In this document: positions 7,274-51,115 of the stretch, piece after piece
Position numbering within the stretch: the stretch's first letter is position 1
Layout of the letters: each line of letters begins with the position of its first letter
NCBI RefSeq assembly: GCF_030693405.1
Contig: NZ_JAUYAW010000072.1
Span: forward strand, 62,001 to 126,000
Reading direction: 5' to 3'
Source: Phenylobacterium sp.
Lineage (GTDB): Bacteria; Pseudomonadota; Alphaproteobacteria; Caulobacterales; Caulobacteraceae
DNA: 64,000 nt
The notes under the pieces: generated by a model
Database searches by the model: none
What the model saw: only the letters and a program-made list of their open reading frames with translations
What the model was told of the DNA's origin: nothing
Program-made: the position numbers and the translations under genes

Positions 7274-7288
7274 GTTCTATTTTTGTTC
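7274..7288 (+). promoter_or_regulatory. Predicted LexA (SOS) box upstream of comM
   Basis: GTTC (7274-7277) and GTTC (7285-7288) are separated by exactly 7 nt (TATTTTT). This is the alphaproteobacterial LexA operator GTTC-N7-GTTC. It lies 87 bp before the comM start codon. ComM-type genes are known members of LexA regulons in some alphaproteobacteria (from memory), which makes the assignment plausible. Confidence 0.7.
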
Positions 7289-7375: not shown

Positions 7376-8302
7376 ATGGCGGGCGTGGTGACAGTGGCCT
7401 TCGACGGGGTCGAGGCCCGCCGGGTGGACGTCGAGGTCCAGCTGACGGGCGGGGCGGTGGCCTTCGTGGTGGTCGGCCTGGGCGACAAGGCCGTGGCCGA
7501 GAGCCGGGAGCGCGTGCGGGCGGCCTTTGCCGGCCTGGGCCTCGCCCTGCCGGCCCGCCGCATCATCGTCAATCTGGCGCCGGCCGACCTTCCCAAGGAG
7601 GGCAGCCACTATGACCTTCCCATCGCGCTGGCGGTCATGTCGGCCATGGGGATCATCCCGCCGGACGCCCTGACCGGCTGGGCGGCGGTAGGGGAGCTGT
7701 CCCTGGACGGCCGCATCGTCCAGGTGGCCGGGGCCCTGCCGGCCGCCGTGGCCGCCGGCGGGATGGAGCTGGGCCTGATCTGTCCCGAGGCCTGCGGGGC
7801 TGAAGCCGCCTGGTCCGGTGACACCCGCATCCTGGCCGCGCCGTCCCTGATCGCCCTGGTTAACCACTTCCGCGGGACCCAGATCCTGTCGCCGCCGCAG
7901 CCCGGTCCGGTGGTGGAGGGCGAGCGCGTCCCGGATCTGCGCGATGTGAAGGGGCAGGAGAACGCCAAGCGCGCCCTGGAGATCGCCGCGGCCGGCGGCC
8001 ACAACCTGCTGTTCATGGGCCCGCCCGGATCGGGCAAGTCGATGATGGCCGCCAGGCTGCCCGGCCTGTTGCCGCCCCTGTCGGCGGCCGAGCTGCTTGA
8101 GACCTCCATGATCCACTCGGTGGCCGGCCTGATCGCCAAGGGCGAGCTGACCCGCCAACGGCCCTTCCGTACGCCTCACCACTCAGCCAGCATGGCTGCG
8201 CTCACCGGCGGCGGACTCAAGGCCAAGCCCGGCGAGATCTCCCTGGCGCACAACGGCGTGCTGTTCCTCGATGAACTGCCGGAGTTTTCCGGCATTATGT
8301 AG
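7376..8302 (+). pseudogene. comM: ComM/YifB AAA+ ATPase, N-terminal fragment cut by the insertion
   Basis: The fragment carries the N-terminal ChlI-like domain ([38 protein letters not shown]) and most of the Mg-chelatase AAA+ core, with Walker A GPPGSGKS and Walker [11 protein letters not shown]. The IS1595-family element enters immediately after Walker B (about residue 302). Its inverted repeat adds a few foreign residues (GIM) and a TAG stop at 8300-8302. ComM helicases drive branch migration in natural transformation and recombination. The rest of the gene resumes at 12270. The ATG at 7376 matches the usual family start; a LexA box lies upstream. Confidence 0.93.
8281..8290. repeat. Target-site duplication, left copy
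   Basis: GGAGTTTTCC at 8281-8290 recurs at 12273-12282 directly outside the other end of the element. If the outermost base pair of each end is counted as part of the element, the duplication is the 8-bp GAGTTTTC, the length expected for IS1595-family elements. Confidence 0.9.
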
Positions 8303-8312
8303 CAAACACACC
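8291..8312. repeat. Left terminal inverted repeat
   Basis: A 22-bp sequence starting GGCATTATGTAG, the exact reverse complement of 12251-12272. It contributes an in-frame TAG stop to the disrupted comM gene. Confidence 0.95.
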
Positions 8313-8336
8313 TAGATCAGGATGACCGTCACCGGG

Positions 8337-8357
8337 TCCGATGCGGTATGTATCGGA
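8337..8357. promoter_or_regulatory. Operator-like palindrome before the 143-aa passenger gene
   Basis: CCGATGC (8338-8344) and GTATCGG (8350-8356) form an inverted repeat with one mismatch, extended by T/A at each side. It closely resembles the perfect palindrome CCGATAC-GTTG-GTATCGG between the transposase and DUF6471 genes (10907-10924). Both are candidate sites for one element-encoded regulator. It sits directly before the chosen ATG at 8359. Confidence 0.5.
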
Positions 8358-8358
8358 T

Positions 8359-8790
8359 ATGCAGATAGAGCGCCCAAACACCGTGGCGGGGTTGATTGAG
8401 AAGCACCGCTACATCGCAGGCCAGATCGAGGCCACGCGGAAGACCCTCAACGCCCTGGTGTTCGACCTAGAGGCGGTGGAGCACACAATCCGCCTGTTTG
8501 ATCCTGGTGCCCAGCTGGGGCGCGCCAAGCCGCTCCCGGCCAAGGAGGCTGCGTTCAAGGGGGAGATGCGGCGCCACGTCCTAGCGGCGCTGCGCGCTGC
8601 TGATCAGCCGCTCACAAGTCTAGAGATCGCGCGACAGGTTTTAGAGGTTCGCAAGATAAGCGAAGGTGCGGTGACCGTCACCATGTTCCGCAAGCGGGTG
8701 GGGGCGTGTCTGTTCAAGCTCAAAGTCGCAGGCCTAGTCGTAGAGGTGCCTCAGACCGGGGAATACAAAGGTTGGCAACTGGCCACATAA
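8359..8790 (+). CDS. Passenger protein with coiled-coil start and winged-helix-like end
   Basis: A 143-aa soluble protein. Residues about 5-45 (VAGLIEKHRYIAGQIEATRKTLNALVFDLEAVEHTIRLFD) look like a coiled coil. Residues about 75-140 (RRHVLAALRAADQPLTSLEIARQVLEVR and ..RVGACLFKLKVAGLVVEVP) look like a winged helix. I recognise the overall pattern from short uncharacterised proteins common on mobile DNA in proteobacteria; no function is established. The ATG at 8359 is preferred to one at 8341 because the latter lies inside a palindrome. A terminator overlaps its stop. It could be a DNA-binding regulator of the element. Confidence 0.75.
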   Translation: MQIERPNTVAGLIEKHRYIAGQIEATRKTLNALVFDLEAVEHTIRLFDPGAQLGRAKPLPAKEAAFKGEMRRHVLAALRAADQPLTSLEIARQVLEVRKISEGAVTVTMFRKRVGACLFKLKVAGLVVEVPQTGEYKGWQLAT

Positions 8791-8808
8791 AGACATGCGC
8801 ATGTCTTT
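8789..8808 (+). terminator. Stem-loop at the end of the 143-aa gene
   Basis: AAAGACATGC-GCATGTCTTT is a perfect 20-bp palindrome that overlaps the TAA stop and ends in TTTCT. It would work as a short terminator, though the U-run is brief. Confidence 0.55.
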
Positions 8809-8996
8809 CTCTGAAAATAATCTGTCTGAAGGCTGTTTTTGGCTTTGACGAGTCACCCTGAGGCGCCGCAGAAGAATCAACGGCGCTCGCCGTCCCTTTT
8901 CCTGACTCCATCACCCCTGCGTGCTCGTGGCGCGGGGCACATGGGGTGTCCGGAGCCCTGGGCTCACACCCAGGACCCAGGAAAGGAGGCGATACG

Positions 8997-9110
8997 ATGC
9001 GTATTGCTTGTTCTTGGCCGATGGCGGTGAGCGTTTGCTCTTATGTCCGCTACCGGTTTGGCCGTTGGGAGACTGTTGTCTCTCACTGCCGCAGCTACCC
9101 GTCGCGTTAA
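8997..9110 (+). CDS. Possible 37-residue ORF with a strong ribosome-binding site
   Basis: AGGAGG at 8984-8989 lies 7 nt before an ATG that opens a 37-codon frame: MRIACSWPMAVSVCSYVRYR followed by FGRWETVVSHCRSYPSR. The product is Cys- and Arg-rich and unlike any family I know. A hairpin CCTGGG / CCCAGG (8957-8974) precedes the ribosome-binding site, as in leader-peptide regions. Codon use is not that of host genes. It could equally be a chance ORF inside a structured non-coding region. Confidence 0.3.
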   Translation: MRIACSWPMAVSVCSYVRYRFGRWETVVSHCRSYPSR

Positions 9111-9199
9111 GCCCGTTGGCGGATAGATGACTAGACGGCGAGCGCCACCTAGCAAGATCGTTGAATCATGCATGATGGGTGCTGTCCACCTTTTTGGAA

Positions 9200-9265
9200 G
9201 CGAACGACGTTCGCCTCGCGCGCCCTTGCGGCTCGCGAGGCTCACTTCACGCGAGCGGCGCTCGC
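9200..9265. other. Cluster of three GC-rich hairpins
   Basis: Three perfect stems follow one another: GCGAAC-GAC-GTTCGC (9200-9214), CCTCGCG / CGCGAGG (9214-9240) and GCGAGC-GGC-GCTCGC (9251-9265). A perfect palindrome ATCATG-CATGAT lies just upstream (9165-9176). The stretch between the 143-aa gene and the 128-aa gene (8809-9506) has no convincing ORF except the weak one at 8997; it is dominated by such structure. Confidence 0.6.
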
Positions 9266-9309
9266 ATAGCCCAACGCCCACCCACAGAACCGGCGCAACA
9301 ACCCACAGA

Positions 9310-9513
9310 CTACCCCCATGCTGGGGCATTGACAGTCCACCGGAATCGAGTCCGTCCGCTTGATGGCGCGAATCAATGGCGCTATGTATTGATTCGCGCA
9401 CGACACGGTGAATCTCCATGCCGTAGCCGGAGGGTCTAGCTTTCCGGTGCTATGCGGGGGACTTGGAGTCCTCGCTGCGCAAACGGGCGGGGCAACCTGC
9501 CCGTTTTTATTTT
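9310..9513 (+). ncRNA. Putative structured RNA ending in a rho-independent terminator
   Basis: A tandem set of hairpins is seen: CCCCA-TGC-TGGGG (9314-9326); a perfect 12-bp stem GCGCGAATCAAT / ATTGATTCGCGC with a 10-nt loop (9366-9399); CCGGA / TCCGG (9427-9447) inside a weaker outer stem; GGACT-TGG-AGTCC (9459-9471); and the terminator (9481-9513). No good ORF covers the stretch. This organisation looks like a plus-strand non-coding RNA of about 200 nt or longer. I recognise no known RNA family. The 5' end is unknown and could lie further upstream, including the hairpins at 9200-9265. Confidence 0.5.
9481..9513 (+). terminator. Rho-independent terminator inside the element
   Basis: AAACGGGC (9481-9488) pairs perfectly with GCCCGTTT (9499-9506) and is followed by TTTTTATTTT. 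It lies at the 3' end of the hairpin array and overlaps the 3' end of the convergent 128-aa gene. Confidence 0.85.
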
Positions 9514-9893
9514 GGTATAGGGGCACCGCGCTTTAAGCGACTATTAACGCCCGTCTTGTCGATCCGGTGGAAGGTGGCGAGGAACAGGCGGCAGTTATCT
9601 GTGCTCACCTTTATACATACATGATACCAGAGTCCGTCGTTGTGTAAGAACGACACGTGCCGGTCCCGACAGGAGACGGCAGTCCCTCCCCCAGGCGCCA
9701 CCGCATCGAAAATGAGATTGAGGCTCGCCGGGGCCAGCCCGTGCTTGCCTACAGCCTTCCGCGCGTATTCAGGCGCTAGGTAGAGGATGTCTGATGACGC
9801 CCCAAGGAAGCGAACGCACTCCGGGCGGACGTGGGCAATCCCAATCGGATTACCGCCCCGCAAGAGGAAGTCTTTCCAGTCTCGCTCGTACAC
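9507..9893 (-). CDS. Passenger protein downstream of the transposase, possible BECR-fold nuclease
   Basis: A 128-aa ORF starting with GTG, 47 bp after the transposase stop and on the same strand, so probably co-transcribed. The pattern DILYLAPEYARKAVGKHGL, then VSFLHNDGLWYHVCIKVS and RLFLATFHRID, resembles small phage-type Barnase/EndoU/ColicinE5/RelE-like (PBECR) nuclease domains, with the Lys-His pair and a Thr-Phe-His-Arg motif as possible active residues. That reading is from pattern recognition only. The alternative is an uncharacterised accessory protein. Its 3' end faces the terminator of the putative RNA. The start is weakly supported; an in-frame stop lies just upstream. Confidence 0.55.
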   Translation of the reverse strand: MYERDWKDFLLRGGNPIGIAHVRPECVRFLGASSDILYLAPEYARKAVGKHGLAPASLNLIFDAVAPGGGTAVSCRDRHVSFLHNDGLWYHVCIKVSTDNCRLFLATFHRIDKTGVNSRLKRGAPIPK

Positions 9894-9940
9894 ACCCTAA
9901 CGTTTACTTTCATTTTGCGCGAATACCAGAACGTTTGCGC

Positions 9941-10894
9941 TTACCGCTGCCAGTAACCCTTCCACTGGCGGCTCACCGGATGGGCCATCGTGGCGCCCGC
10001 GACCATTAGGAACTGCTCACCATTGGAAACGCGGCGGTTGTCCTCGCGCCACGCCATTTCGGTGGCGTAGGCGGCGAGGTAGCGGCCCGCGATATGGTGA
10101 TGGGTGCCGATCTCAGCGCGACGCAGGCGGGAGAAGAAGCTTTCCGCCATGTTCGTGTTGCTCTCAGTGTTGGCGTACTCGACGGAGTGATTGACGCGCT
10201 TCGTCAGGAAGCGGGCTTCCAGGCTATCCCAGTGCGAGGCTTCGTCGGCGTGGATGGTGGAGCCGTGGGCGACGGCGCCCAGGACGAAGGGGACGCCCTC
10301 GGCTTCTGACTTGGCGACGTGCGTCAGGGTTTCGCCGTTGCGCTCGCGGGCCACGACGACGACTTGGCGCTTGCCGGTCTGGTGAACCTTGCGGCGACGG
10401 TCCTTGCGGTCCTCGCGGCGGTTGGCGGGCTTCACATAGCCGCCGAAGTACGCGCCATCGACTTCGACCTCACCGTCTAGAACCGAAGTCTGCTGTTCGG
10501 AAGCGACGGCTTCGCGGATCTTATGGGCGAGGACGAAAGCGGTCTTGTACTGGCAGTCCAGATCGCGGGAGAGCTGGAGGGCGCTGTAGCCCTTGGCGCC
10601 GTTCACGAAGATCGCGATGGCGGCGAGAATGTCGCGCAGGTCCATCTTGCGGCTGGCGAAGATCGTGCCGCTGGTGACGGAGAACTGCGAGCCGCAACCC
10701 TTGCACTTGAAGATGCGACGGGCAGCGTAGGTGTAGCACTCGAAGCAGCCGCACTTGGGGCAAACCGCGTCGCCTTCGGTCGAAGCCCAACGGATCGCGC
10801 GGAAGGCGTCGAAGGCCTGTTCGTCGGTCATACGCATGACCTTCGCCAGGGAGAGCGTGCGGGCGGCGGCTGAAAGGAGAAAGTGCTGGGCCAT
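9941..10894 (-). CDS. IS1595-family transposase
   Basis: A 317-aa DDE-type transposase. An N-terminal zinc ribbon (CPKCGCFECYTY ... CKGCGSQF, about residues 44-72) is followed by the catalytic domain: VEVDGAYFGGYVKP with the first Asp, IHADEASHW with the second, and NTNMAESFFSRLRR with the third acidic site. These features define the IS1595 (ISPna2-like) family. The frame is intact, with no frameshift or stop, so the element may be active. A sigma-70-like promoter lies upstream (10924-10952), overlapped by an operator-like palindrome. Confidence 0.95.
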   Translation of the reverse strand: MAQHFLLSAAARTLSLAKVMRMTDEQAFDAFRAIRWASTEGDAVCPKCGCFECYTYAARRIFKCKGCGSQFSVTSGTIFASRKMDLRDILAAIAIFVNGAKGYSALQLSRDLDCQYKTAFVLAHKIREAVASEQQTSVLDGEVEVDGAYFGGYVKPANRREDRKDRRRKVHQTGKRQVVVVARERNGETLTHVAKSEAEGVPFVLGAVAHGSTIHADEASHWDSLEARFLTKRVNHSVEYANTESNTNMAESFFSRLRRAEIGTHHHIAGRYLAAYATEMAWREDNRRVSNGEQFLMVAGATMAHPVSRQWKGYWQR

Positions 10895-10906
10895 TTGTCA
10901 TCACAT

Positions 10907-10924
10907 CCGATACGTTGGTATCGG
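10907..10924. promoter_or_regulatory. Perfect operator-like palindrome at the transposase promoter
   Basis: CCGATAC-GTTG-GTATCGG has 7-bp perfect arms and lies just downstream of, and touching, the -10 of the transposase promoter, where a repressor would block transcription. A near copy lies before the 143-aa gene at 8338-8356. Confidence 0.55.
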
Positions 10925-10952
10925 TTATGATGGCATCACGTATCGTTGTCAA
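10924..10952 (-). promoter_or_regulatory. Promoter for the transposase
   Basis: On the minus strand TTGACA (10952-10947) is separated by 17 nt from CATAAC (10929-10924), giving a consensus -35 and a fair -10. The transposase start is 29 bp further on. Confidence 0.6.
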
Positions 10953-11002
10953 CGGCAATCGCATCGAATATGATGACATTCGACGCGCAATCGGAGACGC
11001 CT

Positions 11003-11224
11003 ATGGACCGCGACTGGACAGCCTACACAAAGGGCCTGCTACGGGCGGAAATGGCCCGACGCCAGATCACCTATAAGGGCCTGGTGGACAAGCTGGCGGC
11101 TATCGGAATCAGCGAGACAGAGGCCAACCTTCGGAACAAGATCAGCCGGGGAAGTTTCACCGGGGCGTTCTTGATCCAATGTCTAAGCGCGATGGGCGTT
11201 ACTACGCTGCACTTGGAGGGCTGA
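11003..11224 (+). CDS. DUF6471 protein, probable small DNA-binding regulator
   Basis: A 73-aa protein that matches DUF6471 throughout: MDRDWTAYTKGLLRAEMARR, then ITYKGLVDKLAAIG, EANLRNKISRGSF and FLIQCLSAMGVTTLHLEG. Such proteins look like Cro/C1-type helix-turn-helix domains without a separate effector region. The ATG at 11003 has GGAGA 5 nt upstream and gives the usual family length; a longer in-frame start exists at 10946. The gene is divergent from the transposase across a shared palindrome, so it is a good candidate for the element's repressor. Its end overlaps the next gene by 46 bp. Confidence 0.75.
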   Translation: MDRDWTAYTKGLLRAEMARRQITYKGLVDKLAAIGISETEANLRNKISRGSFTGAFLIQCLSAMGVTTLHLEG

Positions 11225-12141
11225 TACTCGCTCTCTTAGCCGGGGCATCCATAGCCCAAGACGCACTGAAAGGCGTGCCCAGCGCTGGAAATGAACAGAG
11301 CGCCCAAGATCAGGCCGCACACGCCAAAAAACCTGCCCAAGCGCCTCTGCCAGCGCCCATCCCAGCTTCGGAGCAGGCCGTAGTAGCCACCGCCAGTGAA
11401 GGCGACGCCGAGGCCACCGAAAATGGCGGCGATAAGCCTAGCTTCATCCGCGACCCGATTGGATGGCTTGGGGCTTGGATATTCGACCCGGACAATTTTT
11501 CCGACTTCTTGATGGTGCTGTTTACGTTCGCCCTGACGTTTGTCGCCTTCAAGCAGCATCAGCTTGAGGAAAGGCTCGCCGATGAAACGACCGGCACCGT
11601 CCAAACAGCCAAGGACAGCGCCGAAGCCACTAAGCTGATGGCCCGGGTTCAGATGGCCGCCATGCGTGCGCAAGTGTCCCCCGTCGAATACCAGATAACC
11701 CAGGTTTCTAAGGCCGGTGATCCGGCAGAAGCCTTTCTCGTCCGCGTCGGATGGCTCAACACTGGAGCGACCGCAGCACAGAATTGCATTGTCCAGATTG
11801 CCGCCGAGATCATTGGCCTGGAGGTGGAAGTCCCAGAATTCTTCCCAGACGAGGGAGCCCCCGGCGTGGCCGCTGTGCCCCCGCAGCTCCCACTCCACTC
11901 CAACTATCTGCACATAATGGCTGGGGACATTGATCGGGTGATCCGAAGCGGTGATCGGCTCATTCTGTGGAGCAGATGCGACTATAACGACGTGTTCGAG
12001 CCCGAAAGGACACGCGTCTCCGAGGTGTGCGTCCAAATGCATTTCATGGGTGACGTAACCGACTTGCTCGACGGGAACCCGAATGGCGACCGATACCGGT
12101 TCCGCTGGCAACCAGTTGGCCAGCAGAATTACTCCACCTAA
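11179..12141 (+). CDS. Passenger membrane protein of unknown function
   Basis: A 320-aa protein. Residues about 11-27 (LGGLILALLAGASIAQ) form a signal-like hydrophobic segment, residues 30-95 a Pro/Ala/Glu-rich linker, and residues about 107-127 (FSDFLMVLFTFALTFVAFKQ) a membrane helix. A short amphipathic or coiled stretch (HQLEERLADETTGTVQTAKD) and a C-terminal domain of about 170 residues follow. I do not recognise the family. The start overlaps the DUF6471 gene by 46 bp; the signal-like N-terminus supports it. A hairpin terminator follows at 12165. Confidence 0.7.
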   Translation: MSKRDGRYYAALGGLILALLAGASIAQDALKGVPSAGNEQSAQDQAAHAKKPAQAPLPAPIPASEQAVVATASEGDAEATENGGDKPSFIRDPIGWLGAWIFDPDNFSDFLMVLFTFALTFVAFKQHQLEERLADETTGTVQTAKDSAEATKLMARVQMAAMRAQVSPVEYQITQVSKAGDPAEAFLVRVGWLNTGATAAQNCIVQIAAEIIGLEVEVPEFFPDEGAPGVAAVPPQLPLHSNYLHIMAGDIDRVIRSGDRLILWSRCDYNDVFEPERTRVSEVCVQMHFMGDVTDLLDGNPNGDRYRFRWQPVGQQNYST

Positions 12142-12164
12142 GAGAACTCCTAACACCATGGGGT

Positions 12165-12185
12165 CCGCTCCTTAAATTGGAGCGG
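12165..12185 (+). terminator. Hairpin after the membrane passenger gene
   Basis: CCGCTCC / GGAGCGG with a 7-nt AT loop is followed by CATTT. The stem is perfect, but the U-run is weak. Confidence 0.5.
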
Positions 12186-12250
12186 CATTTGGAGCGCAAC
12201 ACTTCCGGGGATGTTCGCGACCGCATCTGGCGGCAGTCGCATCGTCCTTG

Positions 12251-12272
12251 GTGTGTTTGCTACATAATGCCG
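12251..12272. repeat. Right terminal inverted repeat
   Basis: A 22-bp sequence ending CTACATAATGCC, the exact reverse complement of the left end. It supplies an ATG (12268-12270) that is in frame with the downstream half of comM. Confidence 0.95.
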
Positions 12273-12899
12273 GAGTTTTCCGCCCAGGCCCTGGACAGCC
12301 TGCGTCAGCCGCTCGAGACCGGCGAGGTGGTGGTGGCCCGGGCCAACGCCCATGTGCGCTATCCGGCGCGATTCCAGCTGGTGGCGGCGATGAATCCCTG
12401 CCGGTGTGGCGTCGGCGGGCCGGGCCGCGGCGCCTGCGGTCGGGCGCCCCGCTGCCAGAGCGACTATCAGCGCAAGATCTCCGGCCCGATGATGGACCGC
12501 ATGGACCTGGTGGTTGAAGTGCCCCCCGTCACCGCCGCTGACATGGCCCTGCCGCCCCCGGCCGCCGGCACCGCCGAGGCTGCCGCCCGGGTGGCCCAGG
12601 CGCGACAGGTCCAGCTGGAGCGGGCCGCGACCGCAGGCGAGAGCGCCGCGCCGCTGAACGCCCAGGCCTCAGGGGAGCGGCTGGAGGCGATCGCCAATCT
12701 GGACGGCCCCGCCCGCGCCCTGCTGTCCAGGGCGGCCGAGGGGGCGGGCCTGACCGCCCGGGGCTGGACCCGCACCCTGCGGCTGGCGCGAACGATCGCC
12801 GATCTGGAGGGGGTGGAGTCGGTCCGGCGGGTGCATCTGGCCGAGGCGCTGATCTACCGCCGGGTTTCCGCCGAGGGGTCGAGCGTCCTGGCCGGTTGA
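12268..12899 (+). pseudogene. comM: ComM/YifB, C-terminal fragment downstream of the insertion
   Basis: The reading frame resumes with PEFSAQALDSLRQPLETGEVVVARA and continues through the arginine-rich FQLVAAMNPCRCGVGG (zinc-like Cys block), SGPMMDRMDLVVEVP and the C-terminal Mg_chelatase_C domain (LSRAAEGAGLTARGWTRTLRLARTIADL). Together with the first fragment it makes a normal product of about 510 residues, so nothing but the element and the duplicated target has been added. An ATG contributed by the inverted repeat could start translation of this half, but it lacks Walker A and would not be a working ATPase. The 3' end overlaps a convergent gene by 46 bp. Confidence 0.93.
12273..12282. repeat. 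Target-site duplication, right copy
   Basis: GGAGTTTTCC, identical to 8281-8290. Confidence 0.9.
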
Positions 12900-46342: not shown

Positions 46343-47575
46343 ATGGCCGCCGACAAGCCGATCAAGAAAGTCGTCCTCGCCTATTCCGGCGGCCTGGACA
46401 CCTCGATCATCCTGAAGTGGCTGCAGACCGAATACGGGGCCGAGGTGGTCACCTTCACCGCCGATCTCGGCCAGGGCGAAGAGATCGAGCCGGCGCGGGC
46501 CAAGGCCCTGGCCGCCGGCGTGAAGCCCGAGAACATCTTCATCGAGGATGTTCGCGAGGAGTTCGTCCGCGACTTCGTCTTCCCGATGTTCCGGGCCAAT
46601 ACGGTTTATGAGGGCCAGTACCTGCTGGGCACCTCCATCGCCCGGCCCCTGATCGCCAAGCGCCAGATCGAGATCGCCCGGATGACCGGCGCCGACGCCG
46701 TCAGCCATGGCGCCACCGGCAAGGGCAATGACCAGGTCCGCTTCGAGCTCGGCTACTATGCCCTGGAGCCCGACATCCATGTGATCGCGCCCTGGCGGGA
46801 ATGGGACTTCAAGAGCCGCGAGGCCCTGCTGGACTTCGCCGAGAAGCACCAGATCCAGATCACCAAGGACAAGCGCGGCGAAGCGCCCTTCAGCGTCGAC
46901 GCCAACCTTCTGCACTCCTCGTCTGAGGGCAAGGTGCTGGAGGACCCGGCGGTCGAGGCGCCGGAATTTGTCCATATGCGCACGATCTCGCCCGAGGATG
47001 CGCCGGACAAGCCGACGGTCATCACCATTGACTTCGAAAAGGGCGATCCCATCGCTATCGATGGCGAGGCCCTGTCGCCGGCCGCCCTGCTCACCCGCCT
47101 CAACCAGCTCGGCCACGACAACGGCATTGGCCGCCTGGACCTGGTGGAGAACCGCTTCGTCGGCATGAAGTCCCGCGGCGTCTATGAAACGCCGGGCGGC
47201 ACGATCCTGCTGGCCGCCCACCGGGGGATCGAGTCCATCACCCTGGACCGCGGCGCGGCCCACCTGAAGGACGAGCTGATGCCCCGCTATGCGGAGCTGA
47301 TCTATAACGGCTTCTGGTTCAGCCCCGAGCGCGAGATGCTGCAGGCGGCCATCGACCATTCCCAGGCCCACGTGGCCGGTCAGGTGCGGGTGAAGCTGTA
47401 CAAGGGCAATGTCACGGTCATCGGCCGCTCCAGCCCCTACTCGCTGTACGACCAGGAGCTGGTCACCTTCGAGGAGGGCAAGGTGGCCTACGACCAGCGC
47501 GATGCGGCCGGCTTCATCAAGCTCAACGCCCTGCGCCTGCGCGGCACAGCCAAGCGCGACCGCCGGGGGCGGTAG
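46343..47575 (+). CDS. argG: Argininosuccinate synthase
   Basis: ArgG ligates citrulline and aspartate with ATP in arginine synthesis. The 410-aa product starts with [20 protein letters not shown] (the ATP-binding SGGxDTS loop), then [18 protein letters not shown] and [20 protein letters not shown], typical of the long bacterial form. Length and motifs are complete. Confidence 0.97.
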
Positions 47576-50977: not shown

Positions 50978-51115
50978 ACGAAAATGTCATCGGCCGGTTG
51001 GGGCCAAGAGCCTGGGCCGGGCGGCGGGAGTGGCCGGGCAACCAAAATTGCGCCACGGTGTTGGCCTAGTCTGCCGCAGAGCGTTCGGGGGACGTTCTCA
51101 AGGAACGAGACGAAC

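Follow-up and report, generated by a model that had tools for sequence, protein, structure and literature searches.

IS1595-family transposons at recurrent exact sites in comM and other conserved genes, with a small winged-helix protein as the probable target selector

Introduction

Insertion sequences (ISs) of the IS1595 family encode transposases with DDE_Tnp_IS1595 and zinc-ribbon domains and produce 8-bp target duplications (PMC8101967), and copies that carry passenger genes, the 'transporter ISs', are attributed in PMC3129680 to Siguier et al. 2009. Here we describe an IS1595-family element that splits comM in a 64,000-nucleotide stretch of a Phenylobacterium sp. contig (NZ_JAUYAW010000072.1, positions 62,001 to 126,000; hereafter the window). 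This element has the same domains and the same 8-bp duplication as other IS1595 ISs, and its family differs from them in having fixed insertion sites, a conserved 149-aa winged-helix protein and a divergently transcribed helix-turn-helix (HTH) gene. Among IS1595 groups, ISNha5 and ISNwi are those with passengers, carried by some members. A search of the open-licence literature, by title and abstract opening, returned no description of site-specific targeting of this kind by IS1595 elements.

Tn6022 and Tsy are unrelated elements with a common selector, TnsF, which depends on 10 conserved bp within the part of comM that encodes Walker B (Faure et al. 2023, PMC10293859). Tn6022-like (AbaR-type) elements are Tn7-like; they are led to this part of comM by a selector that they themselves encode, and use TnsA, TnsB, TnsC and TniQ machinery, unlike the window element. 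Tsy also inserts into comM with a separate selector, and uses tyrosine recombinase chemistry, whereas the window family has a DDE transposase, inverted repeats and 8-bp duplications. TnsF itself has 498 aa, zinc fingers and an inactivated tyrosine recombinase domain, in contrast to the 149-aa winged-helix protein. Elements residing in comM have been proposed to gain by reducing transformation (Croucher et al. 2016, PMC4774983; PLoS Biol 2024, PMC11472951, the latter with transformation studied in two species), and interruption of comM by a mobile element has been reported to impair transformation (Environ Microbiol 2020, PMC7693049). The mobile elements treated in these three articles are integrase, recombinase, Tn7-like elements and others, whereas here the element in comM is an IS1595 member in Alphaproteobacteria.

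Results

Recurrent insertion at exact bases

Named GTDB genomes were searched with an alignment of the transposase, which confirmed 545 stretches at an E value of 1e-3 or better, probably with generic IS1595 members among them, and the best 80 of these were kept as loci. At 36 of these 80 loci comM lies on one or both sides of the element. Target counts were restricted to elements with defined ends. Among 110 unique transposase copies, 79 had both ends and an 8-bp duplication (the search for terminal inverted repeats and target site duplications required an 8-bp repeat); the 31 without defined ends were left out of all target counts, and dropping the second row of the composite locus L080 gave 78 rows. 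The exact Walker B base of comM occupied by the window element is hit in 31 of these 78, and nine sit at another exact base of comM, nearer its 5' end (LPPL..|E.LE.SM). Elements at the Walker B site include very different transposase sequences and lie in both orientations (13 one way and 15 the other in the 28 rows oriented by script), and comM-inserted hosts include Phenylobacterium, Parvibaculum, Bradyrhizobium, Novosphingobium, Methyloligella, Parvularcula, Tropicimonas, Cypionkella and Sulfitobacter. The closest named relatives of the window element among the best 80 of the 545 stretches are in a Caulobacteraceae metagenome-assembled genome and in Phenylobacterium. A separate sample of the genus comprised 35 relatives, 33 of which gave a comM match; in seven of the 33 (G010, G018, G020, G021, G022, G024 and G029) this transposase family is found within comM or at its edge, the window genome being additional to these. 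An earlier examination of the sequence alone (the original prediction) had implied a chance insertion, which is contradicted by the same element family at exactly this base in many genomes and in both orientations. The same interruption in many related species, which it had regarded as evidence against its own reading, does occur, but as repeated site-specific insertion. Selective loss of comM was also considered as the cause of the recurrence and rejected, since it would not fix the insertion base.

Other members of the family occupy fixed positions in other genes. Two glycosyltransferase sites, GGTSN|HFR (seven rows) and LDYP (five rows, one shifted by a base), are taken to lie in one gene from their common sequence context; the GGTSNHF piece matches a Pfam family-2 glycosyltransferase and the upstream LDYP piece has no Pfam match. 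A second glycosyltransferase gene, whose Pfam match is below the cut-off and which we take from its motif to be NfrB-like, holds three rows and one more at another site. Two rows lie at tRNA 3' ends, one base apart. L161 of the first sample is at a tRNA-Gln; L120 shares its 3' sequence, and ARAGORN called no tRNA there. A second sample, drawn from one family in a different order, contained 30 loci (of 31 matches, the 31st being already in the set) and added three elements at the end of tRNA-Gln(CTG) and one at that of tRNA-Gln(TTG).

Further sites were seen in the second sample. L205 and L206 represent a further target type, both interrupting what looks like an inverted repeat (GTCATTCC...GGGAATCCAG) at GTCATTCC. 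The insertions of L197, L198 and L204, which have related selectors, are at most one codon apart and fall in a conserved motif of coding sequence, LW.A...E..TG..(F/V)KA. Four loci (L080, L087, L091 and L093) are composite or tandem, with two transposases or selector genes in or beside one comM site, and look as if a second element had entered the same target. In L072 (G023:C2:5600-25500), about 16.8 kb split comM elsewhere, after residue about 278 (ALTG), and none of the queried genes of the IS1595-element family was detected there; a different mobile element apparently uses comM in this genus as well. The N half of comM in G022 (L071) also ends at residue about 278.

Target choice and the 149-aa protein

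A protein of the 149-aa type is present in all 79 elements with defined ends, and an HTH protein lies beside the transposase in 77 of them (58 DUF6471, 19 XRE-type). Both are core parts of the element, so that its description as an element with cargo in the original prediction holds in part. The 149-aa protein consists of a coiled coil and a winged helix with a repressor-like fold, and belongs to no Pfam family; the tyrosine-recombinase-like fold, zinc fingers and length of about 500 aa that mark TnsF-type proteins are absent from it. Its gene is close to an inverted end (median distance 68 bp; within 100 bp in 67 of 78 rows). Ordinary IS1595 loci gave a weak match to it in one case of 15, and no relatives were found on plasmids at 1e-5; relatives of the transposase at 1e-60 occurred on 15 plasmid records, 14 of these at less than 60% identity. 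Defence-like cargo was seen in L121 (11155-12141), a BstA-type protein (PADLOC 3.4e-121), and in L102 (11415-13184), a DNA methyltransferase with an Mrr-like domain.

The target of an element is associated with its 149-aa protein. For the 55 elements in five named target types (labels from script patterns, or by hand from printed sites for 20 loci; the 23 other rows, with unassigned or minor targets, were outside the tree tests and the first neighbour tests), the 149-aa protein tree required four target changes, as few as are possible, and the transposase tree 15, the lowest value in 500 label shuffles being 19 for each tree. With the 41 elements that have DUF6471, the counts were four for the 149-aa protein, 10 for the transposase and 10 for DUF6471 (shuffle means 10.6-10.7). 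The winged-helix part alone required four changes and the coiled-coil part six. All 134 pairs of elements with assigned targets and at least 50% identity in the 149-aa protein have the same target, a count that omits rows with unassigned targets and hence the identical L088/L089 pair, one of which lies outside comM; the proportion was 62% for the 32 assigned-target pairs with transposases at least 80% identical. In a leave-one-out nearest-neighbour test on the five types, the 149-aa protein was correct for 55 of 55 elements and the transposase for 35 of 55. The second sample comprised three repeats of known loci, nine with an assigned neighbour at 50% identity or more, and 18 others. At the nine new loci the prediction from the 149-aa protein fits the site in every case, by our reading of the sites, and the transposase neighbour in three; if unassigned rows may also serve as neighbours, the fit holds for seven of the nine, and the other two come to lie beside L176, a comM_B-clade element at an unassigned site. 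Among the seven loci without defined ends that were checked by junction, six agree with the prediction from the 149-aa protein.

Two comparisons separate the 149-aa protein from the transposase. L200, whose transposase is 93% identical to that of an NfrB-inserted element, has a 149-aa protein of the comM type and is inserted in comM, and is a natural swap. The window element and L086 have transposases 97% identical and 149-aa proteins 41% identical; besides short scattered matches, the DNA alignment between them is confined to the transposase-DUF6471 block and to 50-100 bp at the extreme ends, and therefore the 149-aa module has been exchanged while the ends stay. Taken together, these results make it likely that the elements are site-specific IS1595 transposons in which a separate, exchangeable 149-aa protein sets the insertion site. 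What the comparisons show is the recurrence at exact sites, the set of core genes and the association between target and 149-aa protein; that this protein binds DNA and chooses the target is inferred.

A number of observations weigh against this interpretation. With the 23 other rows kept, the nearest neighbour is correct for 45 of 55 elements by the 149-aa protein and for 25 of 55 by the transposase, and this recount slightly lowers our confidence in the selector and in the new class proposed below, and slightly raises that in the transposase. Below 50% identity the 149-aa protein fails as a predictor of the target: only L201 fits among the 18 other loci of the second sample, the rest including five at new sites common within groups (L197, L198, L204; L205, L206), four at tRNA-Gln ends, three without a duplication and two without a detected 149-aa protein. 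The right flank of L086 is not comM, so that only its left junction counts as comM, and L094, the remaining locus of the junction check, disagrees with the prediction: its protein is of the comM_A type and its left end is at the other comM site, although no duplication is common to its two ends and it seems to be a chimera. Elements with known selector types also lie elsewhere, namely L088 and L140 (comM_A clade), L171 (GT_1 clade), L176 (comM_B clade) and, in the GT_2 clade, L115, L121 and L148, and the tree tests omit off-target rows such as these. L088 and L089 have the same 149-aa protein and L088 is outside comM. Target profiles of 52 bp applied to nine off-target cases did not recognise most of the sites: ranks with the element's own profile were 33 of 17,676 for L148, 600 of 32,444 for L140 and 652 of 16,664 for L171, with the other six lower, and the wrong profile is sometimes better, L088 ranking 30 of 34,014 with the GT_2 profile against 8,458 with its own. 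Since the 149-aa gene is linked to its element end, the actual determinant might be some DNA or RNA feature close by, and the lack of orientation bias could also fit a transposase that recognises a roughly symmetric site. Finally, Tn7, whose TnsD likewise is a protein that reads conserved coding DNA of a housekeeping gene at glmS, inserts beside glmS in one orientation, whereas the IS1595 elements split the target gene and do so either way round.

L088 is the second of two copies in Phenylobacterium sp. J426, the other being in comM; over 3,888 aligned columns the two copies have no mismatch and three gap openings. Its insertion site, CCCGGAATGATC, has a loose resemblance to the comM core, and comM itself is occupied in this strain. 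This copy may represent spill-over to a near-cognate site; the 52-bp comM_A profile gave no support for that.

Recognition of the target by the transposase itself, with the 149-aa protein a passenger or regulator that travels along, is the best of the alternatives and in our judgement unlikely. DDE transposases can show target preferences, and there is some signal in the transposase tree, which at 15 changes beats all shuffles on 55 rows; this explanation is also consistent with the absence of orientation bias and with a comM site that is near-palindromic in some hosts (CGGAGTTCTCCG). Against it, targets differ between transposases that are 80-85% identical and agree between transposases with 43-44% identity, and in the subset with DUF6471 the 10 changes on the transposase tree are no improvement on shuffled labels (mean 10.6), whereas the tree of the 149-aa protein needs the fewest changes possible. 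It is improbable that the 149-aa protein acts on the inserted copy, as a repressor or in excision or target immunity, its match to the target being a consequence of the site. The repressor-like fold and the position of the gene near an inverted end would suit such a role, but the protein would need to know the target yet not choose it, and the target of L200 follows the newly combined 149-aa protein. To an element-encoded guide RNA, analogous to bridge RNAs or CRISPR RNAs elsewhere, we give very little credence. About 700 bp of the window element have no convincing gene (Table 1), and a guide gene beside the 149-aa gene could mimic the target association of the protein; on the other side, an ungapped all-against-all comparison of element interiors with target flanks, which is blind to split guides of 4-8 nt, showed no excess of guide-like matches, the longest matches to an element's own target ranking no better than those to the targets of other elements (mean rank 0.44; 62 elements). 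An ordinary IS1595 element that landed in comM by chance, although all its local marks (inverted ends, 8-bp duplication, intact transposase) are normal for the family, is refuted by the recurrent exact site (31 of 78), the diverse transposases and both orientations.

The window element and host comM

Table 1. Positions of the element, its genes and the flanking comM fragments in the window.
Feature	Position	Strand	Remarks
Whole transposon	8290..12272	.	3,983 bp; terminal inverted repeat and target site duplication search, relatives as guide
Left terminal inverted repeat, CGGCATTATGTAGCAAACACACC	8290..8312	.	element start CGGCATTATG
Right terminal inverted repeat	12250..12272	.	
Target site duplication GAGTTTTC, left copy	8282..8289	+	comM codons E-F plus 2 nt
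Target site duplication GAGTTTTC, right copy	12273..12280	+	8 bp
149-aa protein, proposed target selector	8341..8790	+	N-terminal long helix 13-53, C-terminal winged helix about 71-149
Stretch without convincing gene	8791..9506	.	about 700 bp
128-aa protein, cargo	9507..9893	-	no Pfam, NCBIfam or PADLOC match; in 2 of 79 elements
IS1595-family transposase, 317 aa	9941..10894	-	zinc ribbon and DDE domain
DUF6471 protein	10946..11224	+	divergent from transposase; Pfam DUF6471 3.6e-29
320-aa putative membrane protein	11179..12141	+	overlaps DUF6471 gene; no family match (Pfam, NCBIfam, PADLOC)
comM 5' fragment	7376..8302	+	ends E-F-S-G-I-M-stop, stop supplied by the element's left end
comM 3' fragment	12267..12899	+	in-frame ATG in right terminal repeat (12267)
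LexA-type box GTTCTATTTTTGTTC	7274..7288	+	GTTCN7GTTC, upstream of comM

The inverted ends are perfect, as originally predicted, over 23 bp rather than 22 bp when counted inward from 8290 and 12272, and the direct repeat is present with a size of 8 bp; the predicted range of 8-10 bp arose because both ends repeat the flanking C/G. A repeat search reported 28-nt arms that are 96% complementary, because part of the duplication gets included. In most relatives the left end approximates CGG[CT]ATTA[TG]GTAGCAAACNC. The catalytic domain, the N-terminal zinc ribbon that marks all IS1595 groups but IS1016 and the 8-bp duplication place the element in the IS1595 family, and its transposase is intact (Pfam DDE_Tnp_IS1595 2e-42, Zn_ribbon_IS1595 3e-12; NCBIfam transpos_IS1595 7.6e-46), in agreement with the original prediction. 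Residues D146, D217 and E251 are invariant in 17 aligned rows and are assigned by us as the putative DDE triad. The DUF6471 protein is probably a regulator. The 320-aa protein, for which the label of a membrane protein is our own reading of its sequence, has no sequence homologue in the other 78 rows, and open reading frames (ORFs) of about 300 aa occupy the same place in several of them. No defence-gene match was obtained for the cargo of the window element with PADLOC in four proteins, and no TnsB-type transposase, TnsC or TniQ/TnsD was found among the five element ORFs with Pfam and NCBIfam. A search of the host genome found a single copy of the element, that in comM.

The two halves of comM match the profile TIGR00368 (YifB) at 5-308 and 304-499 and hence cover it continuously, and the cut is directly after the Walker B motif (LDELP|EF); on both points the original prediction was right. 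In the N fragment Walker A and Walker B are kept and the remainder of the AAA+ domain is missing, as is the C-terminal domain, and therefore loss of ComM function is expected: judging from this truncation inside the AAA+ domain, the strain should lack ComM. The in-frame ATG at 12267-12269 is not kept in all relatives, some of which have ATA. No second comM was found in the 99.95%-complete host genome, which bears out the predicted disruption; the C half has one place in it, and the N half one place plus a match of 31% identity that contains a stop. The closest relative with an intact comM, the sister species G005, has a 99% identical N half and a single uninterrupted GAATTCTC site, and the insertion is recent on the host time scale, as had been proposed.

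The predicted SOS-type box before comM is present. The pattern GTTCN7GTTC occurs three times in the window against 1.07 expected by chance, and 12 of 100 shuffles reach three; the further matches are at 46550-46564 and 51083-51097, about one being expected by chance. Among the comM upstream regions of 28 relatives, 12 contain this motif, located 81-115 bp ahead of the match, the 28 regions excluding the window's own genome and one locus cut by a contig start. The host genome carries genes with ComEC (Competence) and DprA Pfam domains, and altered transformation in the host is plausible.

Discussion

Under the model that we favor, in which the 149-aa protein acts as the target selector, the DDE transposase would cut and join, as suggested by family membership, the 8-bp duplications and the perfect inverted ends, and the 149-aa protein would bind conserved coding DNA, probably as a dimer, and direct the transposase there. 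For the window element the bound stretch would be the one that encodes Walker B of ComM (LFLDELP|EF), and other versions of the protein would lead to the second comM site, the two family-2 glycosyltransferase sites, the NfrB-like gene and the tRNA-Gln ends. With ComM lost, the element could be protected against being removed when incoming DNA recombines.

With somewhat less confidence than we attach to the selector itself, we think it probable that these elements are a previously unrecognised class of protein-targeted DDE transposons: IS1595-type elements that combine one transposase with exchangeable small coiled-coil winged-helix selectors, one for each conserved gene, and that would have arrived at the Walker B part of comM independently of Tn6022 and Tsy. 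Another chemistry and, it seems, another, much smaller protein bring IS1595 elements to a point just after the comM motif used by Tn6022 and Tsy, which we regard as convergence. The bacteria of the three articles on mobile elements in comM cited above are Gammaproteobacteria.

Dedicated protein selectors are already known from Tn7-like elements and Tsy. If the proposal is true, a 149-aa selector in a simple IS-like element is far smaller, and modular targeting would have arisen again. The family adds a further unrelated mobile element at the same comM motif, which bears on whether elements attack transformation genes to avoid removal. The natural swaps within the family make the function of the selector directly testable, and the fixed glycosyltransferase and tRNA-Gln targets make its specificity code accessible by comparison.

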